This document shows positions 1,341 through 25,068 of a stretch of DNA of 64,000 bases, piece after piece. Both the position numbers and the translations under genes were made by a program. How positions within the stretch are numbered: the stretch's first letter is position 1; the number at the start of each line of letters is the position of its first letter. This DNA comes from Lachnospiraceae bacterium MD308 (GTDB lineage: Bacteria > Bacillota > Clostridia > Lachnospirales > Lachnospiraceae): NCBI GenBank assembly GCA_010206225.2, contig VIQU02000010.1:1-64000 (forward strand), given 5' to 3'. The notes under the pieces were generated by a model. The model was not told the origin of the DNA. It saw only the letters and a program-made list of their open reading frames with translations, and made no database searches.

Positions 1341-3014
1341 TTATTCTTGCACTAAATACCACTTCGCAAACCGATTTTTACCTTTTATCGCAATAATTTT
1401 CTCATTTTTTAATATTTGCAGTAGATTTGATACTTTTTTCGATTTCTGATTTTCGCTTAAAACCTCCGGTAATGCCTTGTCTAATACATCCATCAATTCA
1501 TGCTTACTTGCTTCACCCATAGATTCTAAAGCTTTTACTATTAACTGTTTGCAAATATCATCATCTAATCCTTTGTTCCGTATATAGTCCGCTTTTTGTC
1601 CAACAATATCTGCTACTTTAAAAGACACAAATAGATTTGGATACCTTCCCTCTATCAATCCTTGCCTTTTTAAAATCCTAAAATTTTCTTTAGATATTGT
1701 CTCTTTCTTTTGGACCTTATCTAACAGAAATACGGTTTGTATGTCTAAATCGCCATTTGAATATAAAAGCTGTGTGTAATTTTTATCTATGATTTTTCCA
1801 AATACAGTCACCTTAACCCTGTTGAGTGTTTCTAAATCATACGTCGGTAACGGAAAACACTTATCTCTTTGAATTTGATACATCATGGGTATTCCCATAG
1901 AATTAGTATCAATCATATACAAGTTTACCATTGCATTGCACAAAAAAACATTTCGATAATAAGGCGGTTTATATCCTGGCTCCAACGCTTGTTCAATAGT
2001 TTCCGGGATAAATCCTCCTTCATTTATAAAAACAAGTTTATCCTCAAACTCTTCAATATTGATTTTTCCACGTAAACGGTAATCTTGATGAGCGATGCAA
2101 TTGTTTATAATCTCCTTTATTAATTCTGGTTCATACTGTTCAACTTCATCCGGAAATAAGGTTTGCTGCCCGGCAATGTAGCGATACTTTACATTTCTAA
2201 TTCGAGAATATACTTCATCTACTGCCAAAAGTAGAGGCATGTCAAAATGCTCATATGTTTTCACTGTATTGTCTGCATTGTACAGAGTCCATGTTAATCT
2301 TGGAATAAAACCGTCAAAAAAATAACTGGATTCACTTTTCCCCAAAAGAAGCAATGCTGTCCTGGTAATTTCTCCTTTAATTGTTATTCCCGCTTTATTT
2401 AACACTTCAATGTCTGATAACTTTTTTAAAATCTCCTGCGCTTTCTTACGATCCTTTTGACGTTTTGAAAAAAGTTCACGTGCTCGTTTAATCGCTTCTT
2501 CATCCAAATCTTCTATAGATGCTTCTTTTACAATCTCCTTTGACCAATCCGCTCCTATCTGACTTCTGATTAAATCAACCTTATTCATAGGCAAAGGCGA
2601 TACAGATTCATGTTCTCTTGCATACGCCGCTCCTTGCCATGTCGTTGGTATTCCCCGTATTGCTGGAGGGATCTGAAATACAATAATACGACATTTATTC
2701 ATAGTTAGTTCATAGATTTCCATGAATGTCAGTCGTTCATTTGTTCCATTCACTATTTCCTTCTTTAAGTTATGCAATCCTCCTTGTTTCCGAAATTCCG
2801 TTCCAACAATCTCTTTCTCATCAGATATTCCAAAGACCAACCATGCTTCTTGCAATCCTCGCAAATTAGCTTCATTACTCAAAGCAGAAAAATACTTTCC
2901 AATATCATTGAAAGAATAATTGCTCCGTGCTTCTTTAAATTCAATTACTTCGTTTTCAAAAGTAACCACTAAGTTTAAGATTTTCTCTTTTAGCTGATTG
3001 TCTGCATAAATCAT
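1341..3014 (-). CDS. AlbA_2 (Schlafen-like) ATP-binding protein
   Basis: The N-terminus has the AlbA_2 / Schlafen_AlbA_2 pattern: the acidic EFKEA motif near residue 27 and AWLVFGISDE near 60-68. The middle carries a GHKL-type ATPase-like segment (ELIKEIINNCIAHQDYR, then FINEGGFIP). The C-terminus looks like a winged helix. Proteins of this architecture are annotated as putative transcriptional regulators or RecG-related, and several belong to defence islands. A GTG start 9 bp further out (3023) is possible, but AGGCGGTG sits 5 to 8 nt before the ATG at 3014, which favours this start (557 aa). Iterons just upstream suggest autoregulation. The DGQHR-like gene follows on the same strand. Confidence 0.7.
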   Translation of the reverse strand: MIYADNQLKEKILNLVVTFENEVIEFKEARSNYSFNDIGKYFSALSNEANLRGLQEAWLVFGISDEKEIVGTEFRKQGGLHNLKKEIVNGTNERLTFMEIYELTMNKCRIIVFQIPPAIRGIPTTWQGAAYAREHESVSPLPMNKVDLIRSQIGADWSKEIVKEASIEDLDEEAIKRARELFSKRQKDRKKAQEILKKLSDIEVLNKAGITIKGEITRTALLLLGKSESSYFFDGFIPRLTWTLYNADNTVKTYEHFDMPLLLAVDEVYSRIRNVKYRYIAGQQTLFPDEVEQYEPELIKEIINNCIAHQDYRLRGKINIEEFEDKLVFINEGGFIPETIEQALEPGYKPPYYRNVFLCNAMVNLYMIDTNSMGIPMMYQIQRDKCFPLPTYDLETLNRVKVTVFGKIIDKNYTQLLYSNGDLDIQTVFLLDKVQKKETISKENFRILKRQGLIEGRYPNLFVSFKVADIVGQKADYIRNKGLDDDICKQLIVKALESMGEASKHELMDVLDKALPEVLSENQKSKKVSNLLQILKNEKIIAIKGKNRFAKWYLVQE

Positions 3015-3037
3015 AGTATTCACCGCCTTTTACTATT

Positions 3038-3129: not shown

Positions 3130-3163
3130 AAAATTAATGGAGCCTTTCAACATGAAAGACTCC
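3130..3163 (-). terminator. Rho-independent terminator after the small mobile-element ORF
   Basis: On the minus strand GGAGTCTTTCA (3163-3153) pairs with TGAAAGGCTCC (3149-3139) around a 3-nt loop, with one G-U pair, and is followed by ATTAATTTT. The stop codon of the small ORF lies in the stem. It separates the rep/mob operon from the AlbA_2 pair. Confidence 0.7.
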
Positions 3164-3326
3164 GATTCTCTTCACCTTGTATCTCCATTTTTTCTGCGGT
3201 TTCTTGTAACACCTGATCAATTTTAACCTGATTGACTTCAATAAATATTTTTGCTATGTAATTAGCGGTTTCCACCGCTGAATTTGGATTATGAAAACGA
3301 AAATGAAGCTTTGTTTTTTTAGCGAT
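3147..3326 (-). CDS. Small conserved-looking ORF (59 codons) lacking a standard start codon
   Basis: The frame reads (start)-AKKTKLHFRFHNPN, continues through an amphipathic segment (IAKIFIEVNQVKIDQVLQE) and ends in TGA. A strong ribosome site (AGGAGGTGG) precedes it with normal spacing, but the codon at the expected start is ATC. In this frame no ATG, GTG or TTG lies between the upstream stop and the conserved N-terminus. Either ATC is used as a rare start or an ATG was lost and the gene is silent. Similar short LHFRxHNPN proteins occur in clostridial mobile elements as far as I recall, but I cannot name the family. It follows the dnaC-like gene and precedes a terminator. Confidence 0.5.
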   Translation of the reverse strand: MAKKTKLHFRFHNPNSAVETANYIAKIFIEVNQVKIDQVLQETAEKMEIQGEENRSLSC

Positions 3327-3463
3327 AGCGAAACCACCTCCTGCTTACTAGCTTGTCTCTTTCTCCATAACTATGAAAATTTTACCTAAAATAGTCCAAT
3401 ACTTTTCATTCATTTTTCAACATATAATTTGGCGTAAATTGATATTACCTATCTACCTATCTA

Positions 3464-4300
3464 CTATTTCAACATTTCTTTCAGATATTCCATGTTCTTT
3501 TGTGCCTGCTCCTTACGGAAATTTATCCCGGAACAGCAGACTGGCGTACACATGGCAAGCACTCTGTCATAAATTCTCTGATGCGCCCTGTCTGCCGGAT
3601 TCTGCAATTCCGATAACGTCAGGTTCGTAGTGACAATCAATGGCCTGCAGCTCCTGTAACGGCTGTCTATCACGTTGTAGACCTGTTCTAAGCCGTATTC
3701 CGTTCCCCTCTCCATCCCAAAATCATCCAGTATCAGGAGGGGGAAGCTGCATAAACGCTCTATATAAGCATTCCTTCCATTTAATGTGCCTGTCAGGTCG
3801 TTTAGAATAGCAGCGAAGTTCGTCATCCGTACCGGGATTTCCCGCTCCATCAGCGCATTTGCGATACATCCGGCAAGGTAGGTCTTTCCTGTACCCACAT
3901 TCCCCCAAAGGAGATACCCCCGGCTCTCTTCCCGCATTTCCTCCCAATGCTCCACATAGATGTGTGCAAATCTCATCTGTGGATTTCTCCCGTTGTCATT
4001 GTCAAATGTCCATCTCTTCATGCTGCCGTCTGTGAATCCGCTGTCCTTCAGCCGTTCCACCGTAGCTTCATGCTCCCTCTGCCGTTCTTCCGATTCCCGC
4101 TTTTCCCGTTCCTTTCTCCGGCATTCACATTCGGATGGGTGGCGGTCACGCCCGAAAAGCGTCTTTCCTTCCGGGAAATAGGCTTCTTTCGGCGTATGGC
4201 AGGCTCCACAGTATAAAAGCCCGTCCTCCCCTGTGTAATCGCCGTTTTCCGGCTCTGCATCCATCGGAACCATCGTTCCCCTGGTATCGTCTAAAATCAT
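3464..4300 (-). CDS. DnaC/IstB-like AAA+ ATPase (helicase loader type)
   Basis: A 278-residue protein with a Walker A motif GNVGTGKT (133-140) and Walker B LLILDDFG (188-195), matching the DnaC/IstB helper family. The N-terminal part has a cysteine cluster (C31, C34, C58, C60) that may bind zinc, as in DnaC-type loaders of mobile elements. The probable role is loading the replicative helicase at the element's replication origin, together with the RepA_N protein encoded just upstream. Start ATG overlaps the repA stop by 4 bp, so the two are translationally coupled. It is the last large gene of the rep/mob operon. Confidence 0.85.
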   Translation of the reverse strand: MILDDTRGTMVPMDAEPENGDYTGEDGLLYCGACHTPKEAYFPEGKTLFGRDRHPSECECRRKEREKRESEERQREHEATVERLKDSGFTDGSMKRWTFDNDNGRNPQMRFAHIYVEHWEEMREESRGYLLWGNVGTGKTYLAGCIANALMEREIPVRMTNFAAILNDLTGTLNGRNAYIERLCSFPLLILDDFGMERGTEYGLEQVYNVIDSRYRSCRPLIVTTNLTLSELQNPADRAHQRIYDRVLAMCTPVCCSGINFRKEQAQKNMEYLKEMLK

Positions 4301-5118
4301 AGGCTCTCACCCTCCTTATATTCGTAATCGGGGATGCCCTGTGCGGAGTTTCCCTTCCTGTCATTGTCCGCCCATATCCGTATGGCGGCGGCATAGTTGT
4401 GGTAACTCTTCCCGGTTGCGGCAAGGTAACGGCTCATTTCCTCTATAAACCTTTGCAGCCTGCCGGGGTATTCACTCTCCAGTTCCGATAATTCTTCTTC
4501 GGAGAGGAAAATATTATTGTATCTGCCGCAGACAGTGCGTCCCCCATTCACTCCCTTTGTTTGGTTCTCTATTGTTTTGTTTATATTATAGTTGTTAGAG
4601 GCCAGTTTTCCGGCCGTCATAAGTCCGGTTTTCTGGCTGTCAGTAGTCTGATTTTCCGGACTTATGAGGTACGGATTTTCGGCCTCCATAAGTCCGGAAA
4701 TCTGGACTACTGGCGGCAGCTTCACATACAGGCGGTTTGCTGTGGAGAATCCCTGCCGCCTCCGTTCCAGAAGACCTGCCCGGTCTAATTCGTTCAACGC
4801 TTCTTTTATGGTTGACGGGCTTTTATCCAATGCATCCGCTATCGCCGTTACCGGGAATATAATATATGTCCTTCCGGATTCATCCTGCCATCCGTTCTTC
4901 TGCGATAGAGTAGTGCGGTCTAAGAGCAGTGCATACAAAAGCTTTGCTGTCTGTGTGATATCCATTTTCAGCAGGAACCGGGGGTAGGGGAGATAAGGCG
5001 GTAAATGTGTATCTGCCCAGACATATCCGGTTTCCTGCCCCTCTGTTTCCACTCTATTTTTATTTTCCTGTGGTTCTCCCTGCTTTCTGAACTTCCTCCC
5101 GGAACAATTATCTGTCAT
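4297..5118 (-). CDS. RepA_N-type replication initiator
   Basis: A 273-residue protein. Residues 40-150 have the RepA_N winged-helix pattern (FLLKMDITQTAKLLYALLLDR, then DKSPSTIKEALNELDRAGLLERRR as the recognition region). The C-terminal third is predicted helical and more variable, as is usual for this family. It would initiate replication of the element after excision or transfer. An SD-like AAAGG precedes the ATG at 5118. It overlaps the upstream 173-aa ORF by 11 bp and the downstream dnaC-like gene by 4 bp, so these form one operon. Confidence 0.8.
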   Translation of the reverse strand: MTDNCSGRKFRKQGEPQENKNRVETEGQETGYVWADTHLPPYLPYPRFLLKMDITQTAKLLYALLLDRTTLSQKNGWQDESGRTYIIFPVTAIADALDKSPSTIKEALNELDRAGLLERRRQGFSTANRLYVKLPPVVQISGLMEAENPYLISPENQTTDSQKTGLMTAGKLASNNYNINKTIENQTKGVNGGRTVCGRYNNIFLSEEELSELESEYPGRLQRFIEEMSRYLAATGKSYHNYAAAIRIWADNDRKGNSAQGIPDYEYKEGESL

Positions 5119-5629
5119 GTTCAGCCTTTTTATCGGGATACAGCTTTCCGGCGGCTACTGCGGCATGGTTCCTGATTTTCATCTCCCCTCGCTTTTCACT
5201 GGCTCTTGCAATGTTATATCCTGCGTCAGAGAGGAAGAGACGGTATCTCTCCCCTTTAAACCCGACAGGGCTGTCATTGTTCAGCACATCAAAGACGATC
5301 ATGTGCCGGGTATCTTTCTGGAAGCGTTCGATCCCCGACAAGTCATGCCCCTGCAGGACGGGCTGTTTTACCCGCTCCTTGGCTTCGGCAAGCCGCCGCA
5401 GGACGGAACGTTCACTCTTTTCTATGTGATGCGCTTTATTGTCTGCTATAAAACGGCTGCATTCCGGCTCCGGCAACTTCCCCAGCTTTTCTGCGGCGTT
5501 CCTTATGATTATGTAGGTCAGTTCATCCCCGATAGCGGATAATGCTTCTTTCATAGCCTTAACCGTATCTTCTTTTGTCGTGCATGCATACTTGTAAATC
5601 ATCTCAAGTTCACTCTTGGTAAATTGCAT
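5108..5629 (-). CDS. Mobile-element protein of unknown function
   Basis: A 173-residue, highly charged, mostly helical protein lying between relaxase and repA. Starting at 5647 would put the Shine-Dalgarno (AAAGGAGGAAC) inside the coding region, so the ATG at 5629 (MQFTKSEL) is the better start. No catalytic motif or membrane segment is visible. Its position, 11 bp overlap with repA and 21 bp gap from the relaxase gene suggest an accessory role in replication or transfer. I do not recognise the family. Confidence 0.7.
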   Translation of the reverse strand: MQFTKSELEMIYKYACTTKEDTVKAMKEALSAIGDELTYIIIRNAAEKLGKLPEPECSRFIADNKAHHIEKSERSVLRRLAEAKERVKQPVLQGHDLSGIERFQKDTRHMIVFDVLNNDSPVGFKGERYRLFLSDAGYNIARASEKRGEMKIRNHAAVAAGKLYPDKKAEHDR

Positions 5630-5650
5630 AGTTCCTCCTTTTTTCATTCT

Positions 5651-7267
5651 CTATCGCTCTTGTTCCTGCCGTCTCTGCGGCTTATATTCCTGTCTCAGCA
5701 TTGCGTCCAGGTTGGTTTTCACCCGGCGAAGTTCCGCTGTTTTTGTTTTCCGCTCCAGGTATTCGCTATAAATGGCATTTTTCCGGAAAACCAGGGATTG
5801 GTTCTCTGCCTTGATTTTTGCCAGGTCAGGGAACTTCGTCATTCCCCGCTCCTGAAAATACCGTCCTGCCGCCGCAAATAAAGCAAGGTCTGCCCGGTTC
5901 TCTTCCTCGTAGCGTTCCCGCTTTCTCGCCTTTTTCAGCCCGTCATATGACGGCTTGGTCTTGCGGTAGACGGATGCCTGACGTATCAGCTCTTTATTGT
6001 CGGCAATCTTCTTTTCCATAGATTTTATTTCCTTTGAAAGCGCCCTCTGCCTGTCAGACGATTCCTGTATGGCATGGTCTACATCTTCCGGGCAGGAGAA
6101 GCCGCATTCTTCAAGATAAATCATCGTCTGCGACATCTGCTGGAGATTGAAACCTTTCGCCCACCATTCATATCCTTTGCCCTTGTCTTCGCCCATTTTT
6201 GCCGGGATATCAACCATGCGCTGTATACTGTCCTGATTCGGTGCGGTTCCAGACGTTTTCCGGCGCTTTAAGCGTTCTATTACGCTCTCCCTGTGGTTTT
6301 GTCCGGCCTGCTCCTTTTTGGCGGCTCTGGAAGCATTTTCGGCAAGGACAGAAAGTACCGCTGCCTTATCGTAATCCGTTCCCAGCTTCCGGGCAGTGAC
6401 CGGCTTAGTCCTGTCCGGGGTAAGGTAGCTTAATCTCCCCCGGCTTTCCCTGACTTCAATCCCGTAATCCTGCATGAGCCTTGCTGAAAAATCCTCAAAG
6501 GATGCTGCCGCCGAAAGCGCTGAACGTATTGACTGACGCAGTAATTCTTTCTCCGTCTCGAACTTAGGCTGTCTTGGCGTAACCCCGTCTGCAATCATTT
6601 TTTTATTCAGGATGTCTTTCTCTGCCTGTCCACGTTTCTTTGCCCAATACTCACGCTCGGTAACCTTCTCCCTGCCGCCGTTCAGCAGGTCAATCTGATG
6701 TAATCCCTCACGCTGGCACATCTCCATGACTTCACTCCGGAAATACCGCATAGCAGAAGCGGTACAGCGATGCTTTGCGCCTTCCTGTGTGTCGCATGGC
6801 CTGTCCATGTAGGCTTTCCGCTCCACTGCATGGATGCGCAGGGAATTGATGACGATGTGTACATGGATGTTGCCGGAATGGTTATGTCCGTCCGGGTGGG
6901 TGCAGACAAGGGCCTGATGTCCGGGGAAATGTTTCTTACAATACTCCATCCCCAATTTCTGTGCTTTCTCTACGGTCAGACCGTTGTCGTCGGCATCCCT
7001 GGGATCAAAACTGATAATGTAGTGATGGCTCTTTATGTCCTGCCGCTGGCTGTTCTTTTTATACTGCATATTCGCCTGCAGGCAGGAGATTGCAAAATCT
7101 TCCTCCCCGCAATTCACAGTCTCAATCTTGTAACCTTTACGGGGAACCATCCGTCCGGCTTCATCCTTTACTGGCTTCATGTTAAATTCGTCATGCTCAA
7201 AGGTCAGGTATTGTTCGGCTGCTCCGTAATCGGCATTCTTAGAGCTGATATGTTTTATCGTTGCCAT
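5651..7267 (-). CDS. Relaxase / mobilization nuclease (MobA, MOBP-like)
   Basis: A 538-residue relaxase. The N-terminus (MATIKHISSK...Y14, Y20) has candidate nicking tyrosines. Residues 124-141 carry the histidine triad of motif III (HPDGHNHSGNIHVHIVIN) that binds the metal. The C-terminal half is a long charged, coiled-coil-rich tail. It would nick the element at oriT and lead the strand into the recipient using another element's conjugation machinery, since no type IV secretion genes are visible here. It overlaps mobC by 29 bp, as is common for mobC-mobA pairs. Confidence 0.9.
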   Translation of the reverse strand: MATIKHISSKNADYGAAEQYLTFEHDEFNMKPVKDEAGRMVPRKGYKIETVNCGEEDFAISCLQANMQYKKNSQRQDIKSHHYIISFDPRDADDNGLTVEKAQKLGMEYCKKHFPGHQALVCTHPDGHNHSGNIHVHIVINSLRIHAVERKAYMDRPCDTQEGAKHRCTASAMRYFRSEVMEMCQREGLHQIDLLNGGREKVTEREYWAKKRGQAEKDILNKKMIADGVTPRQPKFETEKELLRQSIRSALSAAASFEDFSARLMQDYGIEVRESRGRLSYLTPDRTKPVTARKLGTDYDKAAVLSVLAENASRAAKKEQAGQNHRESVIERLKRRKTSGTAPNQDSIQRMVDIPAKMGEDKGKGYEWWAKGFNLQQMSQTMIYLEECGFSCPEDVDHAIQESSDRQRALSKEIKSMEKKIADNKELIRQASVYRKTKPSYDGLKKARKRERYEEENRADLALFAAAGRYFQERGMTKFPDLAKIKAENQSLVFRKNAIYSEYLERKTKTAELRRVKTNLDAMLRQEYKPQRRQEQER

Positions 7268-7637
7268 AGGCTTCCCCGATGACTTTCAGCACTTCAAATT
7301 TCAAAGCGGCAAGGTCAACGGCGCATCCTTCCAGTTCTGCGGCAAGTTCCCGGTAAGGGAAGCCGTATTCATTTAGGTGTCTGGCAATCTGGTTTAAGTT
7401 GCTGCCAATCTTCCCGTACTGCGCCACCAGATTTGAAACTGCGGTCAGCATTTCCTCATTGTTTGCCGTTACCCTGATGGTCGTGGATACCTTGCCGGAA
7501 AAGATTGCCTGCCTAAGATACTCGGACTGGCTTATGGAAAGCGTCCTGCATTTTTCCTCAAAGTCCTGCCGTTCTTCTTTGGTCAGCCTTGTCTTGACAA
7601 TGCATCCCCGGTGGGGTGTGTTGTACATTTTTTTCAT
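7239..7637 (-). CDS. MobC-like relaxosome accessory protein
   Basis: A small protein with a ribbon-helix-helix-like N-terminus (KTRLTKEERQDFEEKC, then SISQSEYLRQAIF) and the family hallmark GKIGSNLNQIARHLNEYG in its C-terminal half. MobC proteins bind oriT and help the relaxase open the strands. The start is uncertain: a GTG at 7652 overlaps the AAAGGAG ribosome site, while the ATG at 7637 is 14 nt away from it. I list the ATG. The presumed oriT lies immediately upstream. Confidence 0.82.
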   Translation of the reverse strand: MKKMYNTPHRGCIVKTRLTKEERQDFEEKCRTLSISQSEYLRQAIFSGKVSTTIRVTANNEEMLTAVSNLVAQYGKIGSNLNQIARHLNEYGFPYRELAAELEGCAVDLAALKFEVLKVIGEAYGNDKTYQL

Positions 7638-7682
7638 AGCTATCGTTGTCACTCCTTTCCAAAATTTTCTTTCCTAAAATTT

Positions 7683-8094: not shown

Positions 8095-8499
8095 TTATTT
8101 CTTTTTTCTTTCGTAGTATTGTGCCATGAGTTCTATCGTGTTCTCAGGCACATGGAATATTTCCGATATTTCTTTTATGGATTTTTCATCAATGCAGTAA
8201 TATTGGAGAACAAGCGCCGCCATTTCACATGCCTGTGCCACCAACGTTCCGACTAACTCCCGCATAAGGGAATGAAACTCTTCGACATAAGGGCTTGCTT
8301 CCCCGCCGGATCGCTCCATCATTCTTAGCAGTTTTTCTTTTTCACTTTTATCTGTACCAGCCTTCATTTCTTCCTGCATAAAAGCTAAAAACTTTTTCCG
8401 TTCCGGCTCTTCCATCCGGGCAAATCCCCAGACAACCTCTATGAGCTCCGGCGGCATATCGGACGGCATTGGCGGTAATTGTATATAATTCGGCTCCAT
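8095..8499 (-). CDS. Hypothetical mobile-element protein (134 aa)
   Basis: Predicted largely helical and acidic in the middle. The C-terminal part (EKSIKEISEIFHVPENTIELMAQYY) resembles a helix-turn-helix-like helical pair, but I cannot assign a family. An AAGGAG sequence lies upstream of the ATG. It follows the 277-aa membrane protein by 36 bp on the same strand and precedes a strong terminator, so the two are probably co-transcribed. Confidence 0.65.
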   Translation of the reverse strand: MEPNYIQLPPMPSDMPPELIEVVWGFARMEEPERKKFLAFMQEEMKAGTDKSEKEKLLRMMERSGGEASPYVEEFHSLMRELVGTLVAQACEMAALVLQYYCIDEKSIKEISEIFHVPENTIELMAQYYERKKK

Positions 8500-8535: not shown

Positions 8536-9369
8536 TCACTCGGTTTCATTGACTGACTTAACTGCTATCTCGTAATCTCCGTCTTTATATTCTGTTTCTA
8601 ATGCATAATCTCCAATCTGCGCCTTGCTTTCATCTTCCAGGGGATAAAATGTATTCTTCTTTGTATCGCATATGACAAGTTCTCCGATAAGCTGATGCTC
8701 AACCGTATCCAACATAGCTCTGATACAATCATCACAAAACAATTTTTTCATCCTGTGGATGCTGACAATCCCGTTTCCTCGTTCTATTTCTGCCAGACCT
8801 TTGTTTTCTCCCGGACTTTTGGAAATGTGGATGCCTGTCTGGCTTATTTCATCATAGCCATATGTCAACAGCGTGTTCCCCTGATATTCCTCTGGCTCTA
8901 TTCCCTGTTCAAATAAGTCCAGTGAATAGGATTCTCCGGTATTTAAGCTGACAAGAACCGCTTGCGCCGGATAAATTCCCCTGCAGGCACAACATTTCTC
9001 AGATGTGTTCGGAATATATCGGATGTATTTCTCTATATCCTTTTCATATTTGTGAAATACTAAATCGTGCCTTATGGTCTGGGCAATCTCATCATATTCA
9101 TCTTCTGTGGCAGATTCCACGTAAGATATAACCATGTTTAGAAGTTCTTCCATGGCAGCGTCATTCCGGCGGTTTATCCGAAGGTCATTCATTTTGATAA
9201 GAAATACTACAAATGCTACCGTAAGTGTACCTATCACAAAATAACCATATAAGAGGGAACGCTTATCTGACTGGCTTAGATGCTTCTTAGAATCATCGTG
9301 TTCATCTCCAATCCAAAAGGCATCCCAGTTTTTCTTTATTCTTTCCCACACTCTATTCCCACTCCCCAT
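8536..9369 (-). CDS. Single-pass membrane protein with cysteine pairs, unknown function
   Basis: A 277-residue protein with a charged N-terminal cytoplasmic part, one membrane segment at about residues 41-58 (YGYFVIGTLTVAFVVFLI) and a large, presumably extracellular domain. The domain has two cysteine clusters, CCAC near 127 and FCDDC near 215, which could bind a metal or form disulfides. It is divergently transcribed from the XRE gene at 9498 and shares an operator-filled 128-bp intergenic region with it, so the XRE protein probably controls it. I do not recognise the family. Confidence 0.65.
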   Translation of the reverse strand: MGSGNRVWERIKKNWDAFWIGDEHDDSKKHLSQSDKRSLLYGYFVIGTLTVAFVVFLIKMNDLRINRRNDAAMEELLNMVISYVESATEDEYDEIAQTIRHDLVFHKYEKDIEKYIRYIPNTSEKCCACRGIYPAQAVLVSLNTGESYSLDLFEQGIEPEEYQGNTLLTYGYDEISQTGIHISKSPGENKGLAEIERGNGIVSIHRMKKLFCDDCIRAMLDTVEHQLIGELVICDTKKNTFYPLEDESKAQIGDYALETEYKDGDYEIAVKSVNETE

Positions 9370-9497: not shown

Positions 9498-9740
9498 ATG
9501 ACATATTCTGACGCTGTTATCAAAAGACTAACGGCATTATGTGCCGAACGGGATATCACTGTGAACAAATTAGCCACATTATCTGGAATTACACAATCTA
9601 CGGTAGATAATTTGATGAAAGGAAAAACAAGAAATCCCAAACTAAAAACACTCCATAAACTGGCAATCGGTTTAGATATGACAGTATCTCAGCTATTGGA
9701 TTTTCCTGAGATGAATGAAATAGCGTTTGATGATGAATAA
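9498..9740 (+). CDS. XRE (Cro/C1-type) transcriptional regulator, copy 1
   Basis: An 80-residue protein that is almost entirely one HTH_3 domain. The helix-turn-helix is at about residues 21-42 (VNKLATLSGITQSTVDNLMKG), followed by KTLHKLAIGLDMTVSQLLDF. TAGGAGG is 6 nt upstream of the ATG. It is about 80% identical by eye to the next gene, a recent tandem duplication. Probable role: repressor of the mobile element's own right-end genes through the flanking operators. Confidence 0.85.
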   Translation: MTYSDAVIKRLTALCAERDITVNKLATLSGITQSTVDNLMKGKTRNPKLKTLHKLAIGLDMTVSQLLDFPEMNEIAFDDE

Positions 9741-9766: not shown

Positions 9767-9823
9767 CTTGAACAAAGATTCCCCGTATACTCTATTTAAT
9801 TCTTGAAGCAGGGAGAGGTCTTT

Positions 9824-10066
9824 ATGACTTATTCAGATGTGATTATCTTGAGACTTACCAGATTATGTAAGGAACAAAATATTACTATAAACAAGTTGGC
9901 TACTTTGTCCGGGATTACTCAATCTACGGTTGAAAATATTATGTCCGGCAAAACAAAGAATCCCAAATTGAAAACACTCCATAAACTGGCAATCGGCTTA
10001 GGCATGACCGTATCTGAGTTATTAGATTTTCCTGAAATGAATGAAACTATCTTTGAAGATGAATAA
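9824..10066 (+). CDS. XRE (Cro/C1-type) transcriptional regulator, copy 2
   Basis: An 80-residue paralogue of the preceding regulator with the same domain layout. Differences cluster in the N-terminus and the third helix (STVENIMSGK versus STVDNLMKGK), so DNA recognition may have diverged. A longer frame opens at 9803, but the GGGAGAGG ribosome site lies 5 nt before the ATG at 9824, matching the start of copy 1 (MTYSD). A clear terminator follows. Confidence 0.85.
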   Translation: MTYSDVIILRLTRLCKEQNITINKLATLSGITQSTVENIMSGKTKNPKLKTLHKLAIGLGMTVSELLDFPEMNETIFEDE

Positions 10067-10076
10067 AATACCATAT

Positions 10077-10109
10077 AAAAAGCAGATGCTCGCTTCACAT
10101 CTGCTTTTT
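10077..10109 (+). terminator. Rho-independent terminator after the XRE genes
   Basis: AAAAAGCAGATG (10077-10088) pairs perfectly with CATCTGCTTTTT (10098-10109). The T-run gives a classical rightward terminator, and the symmetric A-run could also stop leftward transcripts. Confidence 0.85.
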
Positions 10110-10195
10110 ATAATTAATTACACAGAACTATTTCAATCCTTACCTATTATAAAATTGCTATATAATCGTCCATACTTCTCTTTTTATAAACCGTT

Positions 10196-10327
10196 CTATT
10201 TTGTTGCAACCATATGTATCGTACTTTTGCTAACTCCGAATTTCTTCGCCGTCTGCCGTACCGTCGCTTTATGCTCAATAATATAATAAGCGATTTCTAC
10301 TGCCCGCTCCTCAATATAATCTTTCAT
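10196..10327 (-). pseudogene. spoIIID: Truncated spoIIID (first ~38 codons, then foreign tail)
   Basis: The 43-codon frame starts MKDYIEERAVEIAYYIIEHK and runs through the helix-turn-helix (TVRQTAKKFGVSKSTIH), matching the N-terminal half of SpoIIID, the mother-cell sporulation regulator. SpoIIID normally continues STxHKDxTERLP to about 85-93 residues. Here the sequence changes after STIH to MVATK and a stop. The C-terminal basic region needed for DNA binding is therefore missing. AGGGG precedes the ATG. The break falls at the right edge of the mobile element, so the missing half may lie beyond the left end of that element, outside the window. Confidence 0.85.
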
Positions 10328-10355
10328 ACAAAACCCCTGCACTCATTGTTTTTAC

Positions 10356-10385
10356 AATGTATGCATAGGCTTATTTTCATATTCC
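10356..10385 (-). promoter_or_regulatory. Sigma-E type promoter of spoIIID
   Basis: On the minus strand GGAATAT (-35 like) and CATACATT (-10) are separated by 15 bp, matching the B. subtilis sigma-E consensus (KMATATT, 14-15 bp, CATACANT). The -10 lies 28 bp upstream of the spoIIID start codon. spoIIID is a known sigma-E regulon member, which supports the call. Confidence 0.7.
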
Positions 10386-20412: not shown

Positions 20413-21132
20413 CTATGCTCTGAATTCTACCGTTGCGAAAGTCTGCCCTTTTACATTGCAGAGCTCTACAACCGTTCTGTTATCTTCCCTGCCGGCTCTT
20501 GGCATTATAATATCGTTGTATACTGCGGATTTTTTGTACTCTGCCCGCACCTGCCTGATCGGCTCTTCTCCTTCATACACTTCTTTCGCCATCTGTACGT
20601 ACTGGCAGTTATTGACATGTTCATTCGTGTCGATATGATATCTTCGTACCGGAAATGACTGCAGTTCTGTCATATTCTCCGGAATATCTATTTTTCTCGG
20701 TGCCCTCTCCATCCCGAGAGGCTTTGACACCCCATAAGCTTCCACCTCATCTGCCTCTGGCTTTGCTGGTCTGCCTTTTTGAAGATCCATATAAACCCAC
20801 AGAGAATTGGCACAGGCAGTTATCTCTCCCGCCTCGTCTCTCATGCAAAAATTCCGGTCGCCGCAGATTCCTTTAAATCCAGAGGCCCATGTACTAACAG
20901 TAATCTCCTCTCCCAGTTTGGGATACCGTTCGATCACGATCTGCCATGCAGAAAGCATCCACGCTTTTTTCTGCTTATTCAAATATTCCAGTCCATATCC
21001 GATCTCTTCCGACTGAAAAATACTACAGTCCTGAAAATAATTGATAATACCCGGAAGCGTCATCTTCCTCGTATGGTCTATCTCACTAAAACGTACTCTG
21101 CTTCTTATCGTATACTCATTTACTCTTGTCAT
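20413..21132 (-). CDS. Acyl-ACP thioesterase
   Basis: 239 residues with two hotdog-fold halves. The first contains VRFSEIDHTRKMTLPGIINYFQDC, the second the catalytic-type HIDTNEHVNNCQYVQMA (DxNxHVNN motif, N at about 170). This is the FatA/FatB-like bacterial acyl-ACP thioesterase family, which releases fatty acids from ACP. A TTG-initiated frame opens at 21147, but GGAGAGG is correctly placed for the ATG at 21132. It overlaps spoIIR by 17 bp. Confidence 0.87.
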   Translation of the reverse strand: MTRVNEYTIRSRVRFSEIDHTRKMTLPGIINYFQDCSIFQSEEIGYGLEYLNKQKKAWMLSAWQIVIERYPKLGEEITVSTWASGFKGICGDRNFCMRDEAGEITACANSLWVYMDLQKGRPAKPEADEVEAYGVSKPLGMERAPRKIDIPENMTELQSFPVRRYHIDTNEHVNNCQYVQMAKEVYEGEEPIRQVRAEYKKSAVYNDIIMPRAGREDNRTVVELCNVKGQTFATVEFRA

Positions 21133-21844
21133 CTGTTCCCTCTCCAAAGAAAAAACTTTTGATTTTAAAATCTGTTGTAGCTGTTATCATCTCATACTCC
21201 TCATCCGTCAGCACACTTTTGAGTTCCTCTTTTCCTTCCTCATCCACTACCGCACAAGTGGATGAAGTAAAGCAGAGATTAGGGTACAGCACACACCACC
21301 AGTTTTGTCCTTTCGCCTTCCCGAGTTTTATACGAAGCGCCTCGTAATAACCCTGCGGGAATGTGATATCCCCATACCGCTTATCAGGGAAATAGCAGAC
21401 GGACACTTCCGCCTTCGCCCGGTAAGAATACCCTTCTTCCTGAATCACCCGCTCGGCAACATCCTCAATCTCGCGCAGATGTTCCTTCGCCCACTTTTTC
21501 GTCTGGCTCGCCGATACCATATCTTCATTGCCAGGCATTGTCTGTTTCATATATTCCAGTACTTCATCCCTGACCTTTAGCTTAACCCGCTGCGCCTCAT
21601 CGCTGTCACTATCCGCCAACACATGAAAACGGAACACTTCTTTTGAAAGATTTCCCTGCATTTTGGAAATCCTCGCATCTACCTCCATAGCTCTCTGCGA
21701 GACATATACGCCCGTCAAAAGTGCTCCGATGCAGATTCCCAGTATAACACAGATTATCTTTTTTATCCTGTCTTTTTTGTCTATGTTTTTATCTTCTTCA
21801 ATATCTTCCTGAACCATATCTTTCCAGATCGTATTTTCTTCCAC
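21116..21844 (-). CDS. spoIIR: Stage II sporulation protein R
   Basis: About 242 residues: a short cytoplasmic start, one membrane anchor (KKIICVILGICIGALLTGVYVS) and the SpoIIR domain (FRFHVLADSDSDEAQRVKLKVRD and QNWWCVLYPNLCF). SpoIIR is made in the forespore under sigma-F and triggers SpoIIGA to process pro-sigma-E in the mother cell. The ATG at 21868 has no ribosome site; AAGGAGG lies 9 nt before a GTG at 21844, which I prefer. The gene looks intact, in contrast to spoIIID in this window. Confidence 0.85.
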   Translation of the reverse strand: MEENTIWKDMVQEDIEEDKNIDKKDRIKKIICVILGICIGALLTGVYVSQRAMEVDARISKMQGNLSKEVFRFHVLADSDSDEAQRVKLKVRDEVLEYMKQTMPGNEDMVSASQTKKWAKEHLREIEDVAERVIQEEGYSYRAKAEVSVCYFPDKRYGDITFPQGYYEALRIKLGKAKGQNWWCVLYPNLCFTSSTCAVVDEEGKEELKSVLTDEEYEMITATTDFKIKSFFFGEGTDDKSK

Positions 21845-21906
21845 CCTTATGTACCTCCTTATACTCATATAAGGAGTCTTGACAAAATCTGGAAATGATA
21901 TTCAGT

Positions 21907-23508: not shown

Positions 23509-25068
23509 CTATAGTATACTCATGTTTTCTTTAAAAATCAACAGTTTTTCACCTGATTTGATATCGGAATTTGTCTTTTCATTGATCTCCATAATTCCGT
23601 CTACCGTTGTGCTGTAATGTTTCGCTAAGTTCCACAGCTCATCGCCCTCTTTTACGATATATCCGATAATCCCGGGTCGTTTTTCCAATTCTTCCAGATC
23701 AATCGGCTCTTCCTCTATCTCTTCAATATCCGCAACCGGAACCGGCTGCTTCACAAAGCAGTTAAAGGCAAGAACTGCTTTCACCTCTATCTCACCATTG
23801 CCAAGAAGACCGATACTTAACTGTTCTACTGCGCTGATGAGATCGAACACCATATCCTTAGTTGTCTCATTACTTTCCAACAGATAGGAAAACGGAACCA
23901 TACCCTGCCATACATCAAACGGGATGTTATCATCCGCCTTGACATATAAGAAAAAGACATGGAGTACGCCTTCAATCTTGATTCCTTCCGGAACCACCTC
24001 TGTGTGCTCAAGCTGGATTCTCGCATTACTATGGCATATCTGCAAAATATCGTCCTTTATCTCAGGAAGAAGAAGTCGTTCTGCAATCTTGCATTTTGAG
24101 TGATTCTGCATCAATGAACGCTCCAGAGACTTATTCGATATTCTTGGACGGCAGACATTATCCAGAGAATACACATCCAAAAGAAGCTCTACCGTCTCTT
24201 CCTCATACACGACAATACGTGCTTCCAATGTCGCTTCTATTCCAAGAAGCCGCATCTCGCCATCCTCATCCATGCGCACATCAATTGATACATCTGTAAC
24301 TGCCGTGTAGACCTGATGGAACATCCCCTCCTGCGCACCGCCAATCTCCATCCTTCCCTCATAGGGAATCGACTGTTCAAACCAGTCTGTCTTGCCTTCT
24401 AAGGATTCATAAAAGCAGAATAATAAGAGTTCTCCCTGCAAAAGAAGCTCATCCTGTGAAATCCTTGTATCCAGTTTCCTTGGTGAAACTTCTGTCCACA
24501 ATAATACTCCCACCGTCTCTTTTGTCCCTCCGATTGTGATCTCTTCTTTGATCCGGTATGTATCCTTCTTCACCGTAAATAGCTTTAGAATATCCTTTTT
24601 CACATATTTTTTGTATAGGCTTCCGTCTCCCCTTGCATCCAACGTGAGTTTTTCTTCTTGCCTTCCTTCCGAGCAAAGAGCGAACTCTGCCAGTGCTTTG
24701 ATATTCAGCTTGCGTGAATGGATCATCGTAACACTTACATCACAGTCCATTGTCTTAATAAACAGATTCTCCTCCGGTTCCTCCTCTACATAAACCATCT
24801 CCTCAAAAGGAATTCTCCCTTCTAAAAAAGCCAGACGCATCTCTCCTTCATCCGTTGCATACAGCACCTTAAAATTCATCTTCCCAGATACCCGCACATA
24901 ATTCTCTACCCGCTTGATATCGTCGATCAAAAGGCTTCCCTCTCCCAGAATCACCTGCTTCACATCATGCTTTGCATCCGGCACATTGTAATCGTCGTCG
25001 ATATAAAACTGATCGGTAATTGTCCTGCCCTGACGATAGACAAGAAATTCCTTTTTCTCATATTCCAT
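23509..25068 (-). CDS. SPOCS (DUF3794) / LysM spore protein, SipL-like
   Basis: 519 residues with repeated SPOCS/DUF3794 segments (for example VPDAKHDVKQVILGEGSL near 30-47 and repeated beta-rich blocks to about 440) and a C-terminal LysM domain (GYIVKEGDELWNLAKHYSTTVDGIMEIN). This is the layout of C. difficile SipL, which works with SpoIVA to attach the coat to the forespore and is the clostridial counterpart of SpoVID. The name sipL is likely but not certain, since other SPOCS-LysM paralogues exist. Confidence 0.8.
   Translation of the reverse strand: MEYEKKEFLVYRQGRTITDQFYIDDDYNVPDAKHDVKQVILGEGSLLIDDIKRVENYVRVSGKMNFKVLYATDEGEMRLAFLEGRIPFEEMVYVEEEPEENLFIKTMDCDVSVTMIHSRKLNIKALAEFALCSEGRQEEKLTLDARGDGSLYKKYVKKDILKLFTVKKDTYRIKEEITIGGTKETVGVLLWTEVSPRKLDTRISQDELLLQGELLLFCFYESLEGKTDWFEQSIPYEGRMEIGGAQEGMFHQVYTAVTDVSIDVRMDEDGEMRLLGIEATLEARIVVYEEETVELLLDVYSLDNVCRPRISNKSLERSLMQNHSKCKIAERLLLPEIKDDILQICHSNARIQLEHTEVVPEGIKIEGVLHVFFLYVKADDNIPFDVWQGMVPFSYLLESNETTKDMVFDLISAVEQLSIGLLGNGEIEVKAVLAFNCFVKQPVPVADIEEIEEEPIDLEELEKRPGIIGYIVKEGDELWNLAKHYSTTVDGIMEINEKTNSDIKSGEKLLIFKENMSIL

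Follow-up and report, generated by a model that had tools for sequence, protein, structure and literature searches.

A mobilizable element splits spoIIID in Lachnospiraceae bacterium MD308 and may be excised to rebuild the gene during sporulation

Why the sporulation gene spoIIID breaks off after 38 codons at the edge of a mobile element is the question raised by the window, the whole 64,000-nucleotide stretch of Lachnospiraceae bacterium MD308 DNA analyzed here (contig VIQU02000010.1, positions 1 to 64,000, called C2 below). An earlier note, made from the sequence, had offered two answers: either the insertion cost the strain its sporulation or the element is excised during sporulation to rebuild the gene. 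Interrupted sporulation genes are known, namely, sigK, spsM, spoVFB, gerE, and yabG, and SP-beta in spsM, vfbin in spoVFB, and yin in yabG are excised to restore the gene (PMC10747680). Those three are prophage-like, however, and occupy target genes other than spoIIID. We found no report of an interrupted spoIIID in the open-licence literature, so novelty is unproven; passages of one paper mention spoIIID differences, unspecified, between two Anaerostipes hadrus strains (PMC12888040), and passages of another, on Schaedlerella, contain no sporulation data (PMC11352710). Excision that made a split spoIIID whole again would be an apparently undescribed but widespread case of programmed gene repair.

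The truncation is as the earlier note described it. Codons 1 to 38, including the helix-turn-helix, lie on the minus strand at 10214 to 10327 by profile match and sequence reading, and they run into MVATK and a stop codon ending at 10196. The fragment matches PF12116 over profile positions 1 to 37 with an E value of 1e-18. A sigma-E-like promoter is seen by eye ahead of it, as the earlier note claimed (10356 to 10385, minus strand), with ATA at 10382 to 10380, a 16-base spacer, and the −10 sequence CATACATT at 10363 to 10356; a CATA-type −10 was likewise seen by eye upstream of most of 26 listed spoIIID N-halves. The left element arm (10184 to 10213, minus strand) encodes MVATK and the stop codon and contains TAGAACGGT, of which an inverted copy, ACCGTTCTA, lies in the right arm on contig C13.

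The rest of the gene lies at the other end of the element. The genome is a 97% complete draft of 156 contigs, and a PF12116 search of all 156 returned two matches, the window fragment and a 3′ fragment at C13:3154-3312; two further weak matches at E<=0.1 both fell within frames longer than 300 amino acids. The earlier note had held that a second complete spoIIID would speak against its reading, and none was found in the 97% complete draft. It had also pointed to the missing half and a recombinase gene beside it, and the two occur together at C13:1584-3321. There, a 532-amino-acid large serine recombinase (LSR; C13:1584-3182), with the Pfam domains Resolvase, Recombinase, and Zn_ribbon_recom, is followed directly by the C-terminal half of spoIIID, which overlaps the LSR stop codon. 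Reading from junction to junction joins STIH to KDVTERL in frame, for 84 codons in total, and a 7-bp core, ATACATA, is present at both junctions. We rule out a chance arrangement because the 3′ half lies on C13 and the two halves are in frame across the shared core. The TAA stop codon of the LSR (L003:3178-3182, on C13) borrows bases of the host spoIIID at the core, as do those of most other elements examined of the class defined below, and the LSR read from a circular form would be longer.

The DNA between the halves is classed as an integrative mobilizable element, with its site-specific recombinase, relaxase, and auxiliary mobilization protein, and not as a phage. The element is about 14.6 kb and is spread over two contigs, with the middle inferred. 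The start of a multicopy IS transposase opens C13 and its C-terminal end opens C2 (1 to 273, plus strand), and comparison with the full IS copy on C124 shows about 1,243 bp to be missing; the length of 14.6 kb assumes that a single IS copy fills the gap. Thus, the IS is likely an assembly gap inside the element. The mobilization genes that the earlier note placed beside the spoIIID half were confirmed between 3.4 and 7.7 kb, where, by Pfam, the minus strand encodes an IstB-like ATPase (3464 to 4300), a RepA_N replication initiator (4297 to 5118), a DUF5720 protein with a weak TTRAP match (5108 to 5647), a MobA/VirD2-type relaxase (PF03432; 5651 to 7267), and a NikA/MobC-like mobilization protein (7239 to 7652). 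The same strand carries two cargo genes, one encoding a SLFN_AlbA_2 (Schlafen) and HATPase protein by Pfam (1341 to 3023) and one whose product has no Pfam or NCBIfam match (236 to 1288), as well as genes for a 134-amino-acid protein with a weak, below-cutoff match to sigma-70 region 4 (8095 to 8499) and a 277-amino-acid protein with no Pfam or NCBIfam match (8536 to 9369). Two HTH_26 (Cro/C1-type) regulators by Pfam are encoded on the plus strand (9498 to 9740 and 9803 to 10066), and a palindromic, terminator-like sequence recognized by eye (10076 to 10110) separates the element genes from the spoIIID 5′ half. Four element proteins have either no Pfam match or a weak one. Pfam revealed no phage structural families among the scanned element proteins, which come from the sequenced parts on either side of the IS gap.

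The split recurs in other genomes. Of 397 sampled genomes of the same family, 247 had a SpoIIID match, and in 29 of these (G000 included) the best match was a half gene; the junctions of these were fetched. In 23 of the 397, here called class A, spoIIID is cut in the His38 codon by the same kind of element arms. Both junctions were available for 18 class A pairs, each of which gives an open frame of 83 to 93 amino acids when joined. The dinucleotide CA, inside the His38 codon at 10215 to 10216 of the window (minus strand), is the sole block common to both junctions across all 18 pairs, and we infer that it is the crossover dinucleotide. Four genomes (G076, G132, G171, and G347) form class B, in which spoIIID is cut at Asp40 and three LSR-like genes in a row precede the 3′ half in all three readable cases (G076, G132, and G171). 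The class B recombinase set (L075, L078, and L082) is unrelated to that of class A and inserts at codon 40, two codons from the class A site. One candidate, G115, was rejected as a split gene, as both parts stop at contig ends without att sequence (an assembly gap), and another, G353, was rejected as class A, as its 3′ half is fused to a transposase-like fragment (named by eye).

Recurrence also speaks to the quality of the assembly. The split could be an artefact or a chimeric contig, as the MD308 genome is a draft of many contigs in which the element is broken at an IS. Both halves, however, lie on a single contig and strand in 12 genomes, including the one-contig genome G232, as they do in the named isolate Schaedlerella arabinosiphila DSM 106076 (L115). 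Independent genomes thus show the same arrangement, and we consider an artefact refuted, with a probability close to nil. Where both ends are on one contig and strand, element length ranges from 3.5 to 75 kb. The minimal 3.5-kb element (L046, in G055) consists of a permease, a small open reading frame (ORF), and a diverged LSR, 47% identical.

The recombinase is, judged from where its relatives sit, dedicated to spoIIID. Among the best 80 of its 194 relatives in named genomes, 76 lie at spoIIID and are followed by the spoIIID 3′ part; 71 were labelled automatically, and for the remaining 5 the printed match was read (L142, L160, L163, L169, and L183). Of the other four, one (L181) ends at the core, and L131, L134, and L135 are close LSR relatives inserted outside spoIIID. 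Hosts include Blautia, Schaedlerella, Extibacter, and [Ruminococcus] torques ATCC 27756 and also Pseudoflavonifractor, Flavonifractor, Agathobaculum, and Angelakisella. One culturable commensal that carries the split gene is Blautia schinkii MSK.6.26 (L140). In six Oscillospiraceae-type hosts among 33 loci (L124, L125, L127, L128, L129, and L133), the LSR is 86 to 87% identical to that of the window element, whereas the host gene's own spoIIID 3′ part is 51 to 57% identical to its MD308 counterpart. Moreover, the element DNA of L111 is 98 to 99% identical to the window element over 3.8 kb, and L111 has no match longer than 250 bp to the right host flank of the MD308 element. We conclude from these identity comparisons, by which the relation of LSR to host was judged, that elements move between hosts. 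LSR relatives in 341 plasmid records and 447 phage records were all below 60% identity, the best phage value (57%) coming from an unannotated 6.4-kb fecal record, and the one attP pattern tried revealed no circular form in viral contigs. The window LSR also matches the structure of the SP-beta integrase YokA (9dxh; E, 4e-11); both are full-length LSRs, but the similarity is remote.

Plain inactivation, in which the insertion ended sporulation in the strain and its relatives, is one reading of the split gene, and SpoIIID is needed for sporulation and for normal sigK transcription in Clostridioides difficile (PMC5025042). Some loci do look damaged: G170 is split, and the 5 kb nearest its right end hold no LSR; in G003, the 5′ half stands alone, followed by a transposase-like gene (named by eye); these two and G353 may hold a dead spoIIID. 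Moreover, pN/pS is about twice as high in the split halves (0.20 and 0.22, from 25 and 23 sequences that include class B) as in intact genes (0.11 and 0.12; 12 genes from among the best matches), which could indicate relaxed constraint. Against inactivation, spoIVA is kept in 29 of 29 half-only genomes versus 258 of 397 overall, and every one of the 18 pairs is still in frame. Decay is found elsewhere, in several 5′-half relics that lie behind full copies (L207, L216, and L250), unlike the 5′ halves of split-only pairs. We therefore regard inactivation as quite improbable. In the window itself, the earlier note had called spoIIR and a SipL-like gene intact, and family matches over open frames agree (spoIIR, 21116 to 21868; SipL, 23509 to 25068).

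Loci that have a full spoIIID provide a contrast. All 12 elements whose two ends lie on a single contig have an LSR of 497 to 564 amino acids at the right end (12 of 13 when G170 is counted). In seven other genomes (G373, G300, G308, G111, G221, G264, and G022), a full spoIIID is preceded on its own strand, at a distance of 2 to 7 kb, by an N-half or its relic, and the LSR is gone in all seven, save for a 25-amino-acid remnant in G022. A recheck added two loci with no LSR: G036, with a relic of codons 17 to 38 upstream on the same contig, and G162, with two upstream relics. Thus, the LSR is absent from nine of nine loci in which a full spoIIID lies behind an extra or relic 5′ half. The difference in retention, worked by hand, is significant by Fisher's test against the seven loci (P of ~2e-5) and against the nine (P of ~3e-6). 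The small-ORF profile also had no match in these full-copy loci. In four of them (L203 to L206), the duplicated 5′ part and the N-half are almost the same, and in G228 short LSR-like remnants sit just upstream of a full spoIIID (L214:8897-9081). The contrast would be weaker if a paralogue can replace SpoIIID, as G024, G345, and G183, which carry the LSR together with a class A split or the 3′ half of one, were counted as split and also have a divergent intact SpoIIID paralogue (L208:1127-1369 and L209:1204-1440, both in spoIIID-strand coordinates, and L213:1185-1433). The cargo between the parts in L202 to L207, L211, L216, and L250 looks, by eye, like toxin-antitoxin and defense genes.

The 43-residue stub contains a helix-turn-helix and might itself be a working DNA-binding protein, in which case excision would be unnecessary. 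We think this very improbable, as each of the 18 class A pairs has kept the 3′ half as an open frame, and the LSR-less loci have the whole gene rather than the 5′ part alone. Of the two outcomes offered by the earlier note, then, excision is the one favored by spoIVA, the in-frame pairs, and the LSR pattern, and loss is disfavored. The pattern across relatives suggests precise excision during spore formation.

How excision might be timed is suggested by a small ORF ahead of the cargo genes. The 59-amino-acid ORF (3147 to 3326, minus strand) is conserved in class A elements, and its product is a candidate recombination directionality factor. Its start codon, at 3326, reads ATC, which suggests weak, unusual initiation; the start is ATA in some relatives and ATG, GTG, or TTG in most. 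Relatives were found in 81 of 121 loci searched, which were unequal in length and reach, in 12 of 12 one-contig elements (four of which supplied seeds for the model), and in 9 of 9 further small named elements of 3.8 to 6.3 kb, chosen through their LSR. Pfam (at E<=0.1), NCBIfam, PHROGs, and PDB gave no useful match, and an AlphaFold model predicts two helices (mean pLDDT, 81; pTM, 0.43). Identity with TnpW (PF14202) was considered and rejected, as the window copy matched no family at E<=0.1; the PF14202 matches of the MD308 genome lie on other contigs.

The region upstream of the small ORF is also conserved. In the window, a sigma-E-like motif, GGA-CTATTTT-N12-CATA, lies at 3372 to 3397 (minus strand), and across relatives the block takes the form GG.CTATTTT-N12-TTTTCATAG..ATGGACAAAG, followed by a ribosome-binding site. 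At least five of the seven CTATTTT positions are matched ahead of CATA in 63 of 71 distinct upstream regions (1 of 72 was dropped for lack of CATA), compared with 13.6% in shuffles, although the best-scoring CATA was picked among several in the real sequences and not in the shuffles, and the count overstates independence because the upstream regions are related. Of 13 TnpW control loci, 11 were located, and 1 of the 11 reached the same threshold. We read the block as a sigma-E-type promoter, but the sigma factor is a guess, because the −10 ahead of the small ORF, CATAG.., differs from the CATACA form. Nor is the block tied to spoIIID insertions alone, because L131 and L134, in which the LSR sits outside spoIIID, have it before the small ORF as well. 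The regions upstream of the LSR appear different: 32 of 75 score at least 10 of 12 as sigma-A-like (about 6% when shuffled), and the small-ORF-type block is present in 5 of 75. A TAAC[ACG]GA box occurs in 61 of 75 LSR upstream regions, and in MD308 AGATGTAACAGAATG, just upstream of the LSR (L003:1540-1560), resembles spoIIID codons 39 to 43. The box and AGATGTAACAGAATG are possible sites of self-control or a SpoIIID box, and SpoIIID-box-like sequences were seen near both the LSR and the small-ORF promoters.

We think it likely that spoIIID is rebuilt in the mother cell when the LSR and the small ORF product excise the element, as sigK is by skin excision. An element of about 14.6 kb would have inserted site specifically at the His38 codon by means of its own LSR, and growing cells, with a split gene, would make the 43-residue stub alone. 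In the mother cell, active sigma-E would transcribe both the spoIIID 5′ half and, from the sigma-E-like promoter inside the element, the gene for the 59-amino-acid protein. That protein may then switch the LSR, whose own promoter looks sigma-A-like, from integration to excision. With the element gone and codons 38 and 39 rejoined, SpoIIID would be made and sporulation would proceed, while the forespore would keep the element and pass it to the spore. Transcription running on from the spoIIID promoter into the element was considered as a trigger and is weakened in the window by the terminator-like palindrome at 10076 to 10110; it may still operate in small elements whose main genes all share a strand.

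Excision need not be programmed. The element could be an ordinary mobilizable one that is excised rarely and without regulation, with spores arising from cells that lost it by chance, a heterogeneity resembling phase variation. In favor of this reading, the element carries a mobilization gene set, insertions turn over rapidly, and near-identical element DNA is found in another host (L111). Full-length spoIIID occurs in sampled congeners of several genera, both in same-genus genomes (G057 and G367, genus g1) and in further congeners (G349, g32; G027, g28), and the class A genome G028 shares its genus with the class B genome G347. Insertions thus come and go. Small elements with no mobilization genes visible by eye in the ORF lists nevertheless retain the LSR and the small ORF, a full spoIIID accompanies loss of the LSR in nine of nine loci, and the sigma-E-like block is conserved before the small ORF. 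Rare, unregulated excision is for these reasons unlikely, and regulated excision in the mother cell remains our preferred reading.

Known systems supply parts of this scheme. Skin, which is prophage-like (PMC10747680), splits sigK in C. difficile; its large serine recombinase, CD1231, is expressed from a sigma-A promoter, and excision needs a 72-amino-acid factor, CD1234, which is expressed from a sigma-E promoter and also needs SpoIIID (PMC5025042). The spoIIID element is alike in splitting the gene of a mother-cell regulator, and its promoter motifs suggest a similar pairing of a sigma-A-type LSR promoter with a candidate small factor that may be driven by sigma-E. The target of skin is sigK, however, and the SpoIIID requirement of CD1234 cannot apply here before excision. 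The earlier note's comparison with skin holds in its logic, although the element here is a mobilizable one rather than a prophage remnant. The gin element in gerE of Bacillus cereus requires the serine recombinase GirC and GirX (PMC5595907). Like the spoIIID element, gin is not a phage and uses a serine recombinase to split a small regulator gene, but it has three serine recombinase genes and is therefore closer to class B than to the class A element of the window.

The gene content of the element has a further parallel. Mobilizable elements of the Tn4451/TnpX type combine an LSR, mobilization genes, and a small TnpW-like ORF. The window element differs in that its target is spoIIID and its small ORF has no PF14202 match.

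Taken together, the comparisons lead us to favor, with some reserve, a broader reading. A horizontally spreading family of non-phage elements may use spoIIID as a dedicated attachment site across gut Clostridia, in many genera and in several families, with the excision factor wired to the earliest mother-cell sigma factor, such that the host would sporulate only through the element. Were the recombinase lost, only hosts that regained spoIIID by duplication of the 5′ half would keep sporulating. Elements would thereby control one of the first switches in the mother cell, one that precedes sigK, in about a tenth of the sampled family genomes that bear spoIIID. If so, a mobile element would act above SpoIIID, the very regulator that governs skin excision in C. 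difficile, and many gut commensals would need the element to form spores and hence to survive outside the host and be transmitted. Loci that are split, intact, or intact with a relic would offer a natural experiment on how elements become indispensable, and the family would provide an LSR with a mapped target and a candidate directionality factor. Sporulation predictions based on annotation could miss or misread a split spoIIID.

The split may extend beyond the family. An order-level sample of 295 genomes was searched, and 194 SpoIIID-matching genomes outside the family were counted, of which 32, by our own count, had a half-length best match. Assigned from the matches rather than from junction DNA, 18 of the 32 have both halves apart and 13 have one half; in the last, G617, the two parts are side by side, 1 base apart, and it was rejected as an insertion. 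The spoIIID halves of G441, a one-contig genome from a different family, lie 120 kb apart (G441:C1 2412923-2533156). Two further genomes have the halves on opposite strands (G607:C1 9319-11728 and G461:C11 41298-64735), which are possible inversions.
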